A stretch of 17,423 nt of DNA, taken from assembly GCA_009921765.1 (NCBI GenBank), contig RFXC01000074.1:1-17423 (forward strand), given 5' to 3'. A model generated the notes under the pieces. That model was not told the origin of the DNA, searched no databases, and worked only from the letters and a program-made list of their open reading frames with translations. Positions 7,182-8,348 of this stretch are shown piece by piece. The translations under genes were made by a program, and so were the position numbers. Source of the stretch: Betaproteobacteria bacterium (GTDB taxonomy: Bacteria; Pseudomonadota; Gammaproteobacteria; Burkholderiales; Burkholderiaceae). Every line of letters begins with the position of its first letter. Position 1 is the stretch's first letter.

Positions 7182-8348
7182 TCAGGCTGCGTTCACCATT
7201 TCGCCCTCGAGATCGTGTTCGTCGGCGCCCGTGATTCGCACCTGCACAAAGCCGCCGATTGGCAAGGGGCCGCTACCGCCAAACCGAACCACGCCGTCGA
7301 TCTCCGGCGCGTCCATCTGCGTGCGCCCGACCGCATAGGCACCATCCTCCGACTCTTCGACCCCATCAACCAGCACCCGCATGGTGCGGCCCACAAAGCG
7401 TTGCAGTCGCTCGGCGGAGATCTCGGCCTGGACCTGCATGAACCGCTCGCGGCGCGCCTCGCGTACCGCTTCCGGCAACGCCCCCGGCAGGTCATTGGCG
7501 GTGGCGCCGTCCACGGGCGAGTACGCAAAGCACCCCACACGATCAAGCCGCGCCTCGCGCAGGAACTCAAGCAGCGACTCGAATTCCGCCTCGGTCTCGC
7601 CAGGAAAGCCTGCAATAAAGGTGCTCCGTACCGTGATGTCGGGCACGATCGCCCGCCAGGCCTGGATGCGCTCGATATTGCGCTCGCCACTGGCCGGCCG
7701 CTTCATGAGCTTCAGAATTCGCGGATGGGCATGCTGGAAAGGCACATCCAGGTAAGGCAGCACCAGCCCTTCGGCCATCAATTCAACGAGCTGATCCACA
7801 TGCGGATACGGATAGACATAGTGCATCCGAACCCAGGCATCATGCTCCCGGGCAGCCATCCCCAACTCGCGCGCGAGCTCATGGACGCGGGTGCGAACCG
7901 GGCGGTGTCTGGGGGTGAGCTTGATACCCGCCTCGGGGACGAGATCGGTAAAGGGGTCATGCGGCCGGGGCAGCGCCCGATGGACGTGTGCCATCACCTC
8001 CTCGGTGGCATGAGGACCCGTCACGGCGAGCACGCTGGGGTGCACTTCCTCAACGAGCGTCGATCCAGGGCTGCTGCCCGCTTTCGCACCCAGACAGCCG
8101 GTGACGATCACCTTGCCATTTTCTGCCAGGGCTTCGCCGATGGCATCGAGCGACTCGCGCACGGCGTCGTCGATGAATCCACAGGTGTTGACGACCACGA
8201 GATCGGAGCCGTCGTAGGAGCCCGACACTTCATAGCCCTCGGCGCGAAGCTGCGTGAGGATGCGTTCGGAGTCGACCAGCGCCTTGGGGCAACCCAGCGA
8301 AACGAAGCCGACCTTGGGGACCGACTTTTTCCTGCGGGCCGCGCTCAC
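7182..8348 (-). CDS. rimO: Ribosomal protein S12 methylthiotransferase RimO, radical-SAM segment missing
   Basis: RimO methylthiolates an aspartate of ribosomal protein S12. This 388-residue product has the N-terminal UPF0004 domain with its three cluster cysteines (Cys20 in SLGCPKALVDSE, Cys56 in NTCGFI, Cys85 in TGCLGA) and a recognisable C-terminal half (MHYVYPYP, PYLDVPFQHA, STFIAGFPGETE, CFAYSPVDGATAN and a TRAM domain). However, KLTPRH at 143-148 runs straight into RPVRTR. In homologues about 70 residues lie between these points, including the Cx3Cx2C motif that holds the catalytic [4Fe-4S] cluster. The reading frame is kept. As written the protein cannot bind the radical-SAM cluster. 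It starts at a GTG overlapping the phaR stop (GTGA), so it is probably coupled to phaR. Confidence 0.9.
   Translation of the reverse strand: MSAARRKKSVPKVGFVSLGCPKALVDSERILTQLRAEGYEVSGSYDGSDLVVVNTCGFIDDAVRESLDAIGEALAENGKVIVTGCLGAKAGSSPGSTLVEEVHPSVLAVTGPHATEEVMAHVHRALPRPHDPFTDLVPEAGIKLTPRHRPVRTRVHELARELGMAAREHDAWVRMHYVYPYPHVDQLVELMAEGLVLPYLDVPFQHAHPRILKLMKRPASGERNIERIQAWRAIVPDITVRSTFIAGFPGETEAEFESLLEFLREARLDRVGCFAYSPVDGATANDLPGALPEAVREARRERFMQVQAEISAERLQRFVGRTMRVLVDGVEESEDGAYAVGRTQMDAPEIDGVVRFGGSGPLPIGGFVQVRITGADEHDLEGEMVNAA

Follow-up and report, generated by a model that had tools for sequence, protein, structure and literature searches.

A rimO frame without its radical-SAM cluster motif is most likely an error of its contig

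Does a rimO gene that lacks the segment for its catalytic cluster show that S12 methylthiolation was lost in nature, or does it reflect a fault in the contig that carries it? The question is raised by a reading frame of 388 amino acids at 7182..8348 on the minus strand of the window, the whole 17,423-nucleotide stretch of DNA analyzed here. In this frame KLTPRH, ending at residue 148, is followed directly by R149PVRTR. The initial annotation had pointed to this junction and left two readings side by side, a real loss of the modification or an assembly deletion. The surroundings of the gene, with two frameshift deletions and a joint between gene interiors, favour the assembly deletion, and a real loss of function is now clearly the less probable of the two.

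The deletion was defined by comparison with G001 and G005, the two nearest relatives compared that have a rimO gene, each encoding 460 amino acids. What is missing is the 72 residues from Y149 to G220; both cuts fall between codons, and 216 bp are lost. The joint lies at 7904..7905 (minus strand) with a one-base ambiguity in position, and one base of overlap is present there as judged from G001 and G005. The earlier estimate of about 70 residues, the motif included, and of an in-frame deletion of about 210 bases near 7904 was therefore accurate. Full-length relatives have the cysteines of the CX3CX2C radical-SAM cluster motif at positions 158, 162 and 165, inside the missing part, and the motif is absent from the 388-residue protein. 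Each half of the protein closely follows its counterpart in G001, with identities of 99.3% and 97.9%, so the deletion is no chance effect.

The remainder of the protein is in place, as had been proposed for the cysteines of the other cluster and for TRAM. Pfam and the alignment place a UPF0004 domain at residues 12-91 (8076..8315, minus strand; PF00919, 65.8 bits) with Cys20, Cys56 and Cys85 kept, none of which varies across 38 aligned sequences that we selected from the 120 listed RimO proteins. The spacings between these cysteines are 35 and 28 residues. The second is shorter than in the CysX35-36CysX32-33Cys pattern given for RimO in an excerpt of PMC5352715, and full-length relatives have the same short spacing. 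A TRAM domain forms the C-terminus at residues 319-385 (7194..7394, minus strand; PF18693 77.9 bits, PF01938 29.8 bits). The radical-SAM domain is reduced to residues 158-263 (7560..7877, minus strand), which cover the Pfam Radical_SAM profile at positions 65-166 of 166 only. With 412.3 bits against a cut-off of 356.95 the protein passes TIGR01125 (RimO), and automatic annotation would still call it RimO, as had been anticipated.

If made, the 388-residue protein is expected from its sequence to carry no radical-SAM [4Fe-4S] cluster and is predicted to be inactive as a methylthiotransferase. Since the cluster is not bound in the known way without CX3CX2C (excerpt of PMC5352715), no methylthiolation of S12 is predicted. 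The window protein has in common with known RimO (TIGR01125; Thermotoga maritima structures 4jc0 and 2qgq) the UPF0004 domain with three cysteines, the second radical-SAM part, TRAM and a score above the cut-off. It differs in lacking residues 149-220, which comprise a barrel strand, the loop with CX3CX2C, the first helix and the strand that follows. The model of the full 460-residue protein puts the two strands at 149-153 and 196-200 and the helix at 179-191. The tRNA methylthiotransferase MiaB (7mjv and others) has the same architecture, but the window protein scores 148.7 bits against a MiaB cut-off of 355.3 and is far closer to RimO. The first Foldseek match of the 388-residue model is 4jc0, with a TM-score of 0.59 to the query. 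The short model (pLDDT 78.9, pTM 0.60) and the full-length control (76.7, 0.62) are alike in confidence, and for this reason no claim on folding is made.

A search for similar proteins found the CX3CX2C motif in 119 of the 120 listed RimO proteins, out of 8000 scored, the exception being the window's own. The 388-residue protein represents a single member on a single contig, whose 17,423 bases equal the length of the window. The next match has 460 residues, is 99% identical where both align, and represents 44 members on 29 contigs. A second sequence with the deletion was not found among the 120 listed proteins, in a database clustered at 90% identity where another deleted copy could hide inside a different cluster. 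Related genomes likewise keep the three motif cysteines at 30 of 30 loci, as do 80 of 80 named contigs; the two sets overlap in some organisms. The 80 contigs are a sample, the top-ranked among 588 confirmed. All six peptide patterns used to find them lie outside the missing segment, so the sampling was not biased against a similar deletion. Two further loci (L032 and L036) match residues 199-460 only; they end before the motif and are not motif losses. A natural in-frame variant common to relatives was rejected on the loci examined. Two contigs of lake or reservoir type (L049 and L062), from metagenome-assembled genomes, bear the title Bordetella parapertussis. One of them is near-identical to a lake Burkholderiaceae-like lineage, and the title looks like a misassignment.

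On one strand (7182-11486), phaC, an acetoacetyl-CoA reductase gene and phaR are followed immediately by rimO, which overlaps phaR by 4 bases. Substitution rates were computed for the two rimO halves separately; whole-gene rimO values and the first serB values were set aside, since aligning across the deletions distorts them. The dN/dS values of the halves are 0.025 and 0.052 against G001, and 0.019 and 0.026 against G005. Values this low point to purifying selection that still acts or ended only very recently, with no sign of relaxation. The other window genes, where undistorted by a deletion, have values of 0.006-0.20 and intact frames.

G001 is the nearest genome compared, with 27% of sampled 31-letter words in common with the window. 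Over aligned bases the two are 94.7% identical at 1-10573 and 93.5% at 10526-16932. A stretch of 7 kb holds three coding deletions (65, 216 and 8 bases) that relatives do not share, and two of them are frameshifts. The 65-base deletion is in serB, with its joint at 6535..6536 (plus strand; up to 2 bases ambiguous) and about 2 bases of overlap. In the serB remainder (6424..7164, plus strand) about the first 38 residues are out of the native frame, and the TIGR00338 match begins at residue 39. The 8-base deletion, a frameshift against both G001 and G005, is in rluD at 13448..13451 (minus strand). In the rluD remainder (12556..13482, minus strand) the match to relatives starts at residue 12. G001 and G005 were also compared with each other as a control. 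They are 88.9% and 87.4% identical (11-13% apart) and have no gap at the three deletion sites, and in neither genome is the serB or rluD frame interrupted there.

Every other gap against G001 is in frame or at a variable gene end. The mfd gene has 6 and 9 extra bases near 3900, multiples of three. The 5' part of phaC has 6 bases fewer at 11261, 8 more at 11296 and 2 fewer at 11312, with net multiples of three. The 14 extra bases at 14417 fall in the last codons of a helicase gene, where G005 differs in length as well. No isolated one-base coding gaps against G001 were listed. Mismatches to G001 are not raised beside the rimO joint (1 in 60 bases, against 5.8% overall); they are raised at serB (7 of 60 within 30 bases) and at rluD (24 of 200 within 100 bases).

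Among 120 listed SerB proteins, 14 differ from the window's by at most three of the last 208 residues. Twelve have 281 residues, one has 276 and one 226. Thirteen of the 14 contain the missing stretch and the 226-residue one begins inside it. A 205-residue SerB (P0136) begins just past the stretch and is uninformative, and for another 205-residue call (P0148), on what its length suggests is a contig of G003, the source frame is open further upstream. No near-identical intact RluD was found among the listed proteins, the best being 93% identical (358 amino acids, 37 contigs). The damaged serB and RluA-family genes still score above their NCBIfam cut-offs.

The right end of the contig carries a different kind of break. 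Beyond 17212 the window departs from both G001 and G005, in which the gene at this place runs on. The gene cut here (minus strand) is VWA-like by our own reading, and Pfam gave no match to its fragment. The last 211 bases (17213..17423, plus strand) are a fragment from the interior of a sulfatase gene (PF00884). Its best match, at 81%, is in a genome of another genus (G012), and 7 of 21 genomes match; in the nearest genus, represented by five genomes, the match is at 73-79% in four and absent in one. Two gene interiors thus meet at 17212..17213, as in a chimeric contig.

The three deletions and the right-end joint are present in this contig and absent from G001 and G005. From this concentration of breaks we infer that their origin is technical, and the 216-base gap in rimO is most probably an error of this contig and not a product of evolution. 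The serB and rluD frameshifts, the rimO deletion and the gene-interior joint all fall on one contig of 17.4 kb, and in a gene set under selection one fault of the contig explains them more easily than four separate recent events. False pseudogenes that arise from assembly errors have been reported in bacterial genomes (excerpt of PMC11017572). An ordinary betaproteobacterial rimO would then have lost 216 bases because a read was chimeric or deleted where coverage was low, because a gap was wrongly closed, or during amplification. The overlaps at the rimO and serB joints are too short for a simple misjoin at a shared k-mer, so reads bearing the joints may have existed. Amplification by MDA was considered as the cause and is a poor fit, since nearby joins in direct orientation are rare: 11 of 475 MDA chimeras joined segments less than 10 kb apart in this way, according to an excerpt of PMC1855051. 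This leaves two putative steps: reads that were chimeric or deleted where coverage was low, and an error in gap closure. Against an error of the contig stand its otherwise good base-level quality and the fact that the rimO deletion is in frame, as do the dispensability of rimO in E. coli, the unraised mismatch rate beside the rimO joint and the lack of a near-identical intact RluD among the listed proteins.

A real and very recent deletion in the sampled strain, by illegitimate recombination with about one base of overlap, is perhaps a one-in-a-few prospect. The radical-SAM barrel would thereby have lost its first beta-alpha-beta unit, together with the cluster motif, leaving RimO inactive and S12 unmodified. 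The short overlap fits such recombination, and rimO is dispensable: an excerpt of PMC10002905 describes an E. coli rimO mutant that grew like the wild type without the modification. Absence of the whole gene also seems to occur in nature. In three genomes of the same order, 99-100% complete (G006, G029 and G037), no match reaches the RimO cut-off, and the lower-scoring matches are taken for MiaB-type enzymes. They are the three without a match above the cut-off among 33 high-quality relatives (at least 90% complete, at most 5% contaminated), where the cut-off itself was run on 8 genomes and the others were judged from their matches. Complete loss of rimO thus seems to occur in the order. The deletion in the window, however, coincides with the breaks in serB and rluD and with the right-end joint, both rimO halves are under purifying selection, and the window's own is the only deleted sequence among the listed proteins.

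Two further readings are far less probable. The contig could come from a lineage in early genome decay, with many housekeeping genes breaking at once. Three broken genes in 17.4 kb would agree with this, but the lesions would need to be nearly simultaneous and the other genes of the window keep low dN/dS and intact frames, so that decay is very improbable. Hardly any weight, and slightly less again, falls on a shortened RimO that is truly encoded and kept for another task without catalysis, such as binding S12 by its TRAM domain or a function of UPF0004 with one cluster. Its intact frame, TRAM and three UPF0004 cysteines would suit such a protein. No counterpart is seen in relatives, however, which keep the motif at every locus and contig compared, and the structure model is least confident precisely at the joint (residues 136-152 below pLDDT 50).

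A real deletion would mean that a lake bacterium has lost S12 methylthiolation naturally. The weight of such a finding would be modest, since E. coli tolerates the loss of rimO (excerpt of PMC10002905) and the gene has seemingly been lost elsewhere in the order. With an error of the contig as the preferred reading, the finding is chiefly a caution. As rimO, serB and rluD all remain above the cut-offs of their NCBIfam families, such deletions can go unnoticed in automatic annotation and be taken for gene loss.
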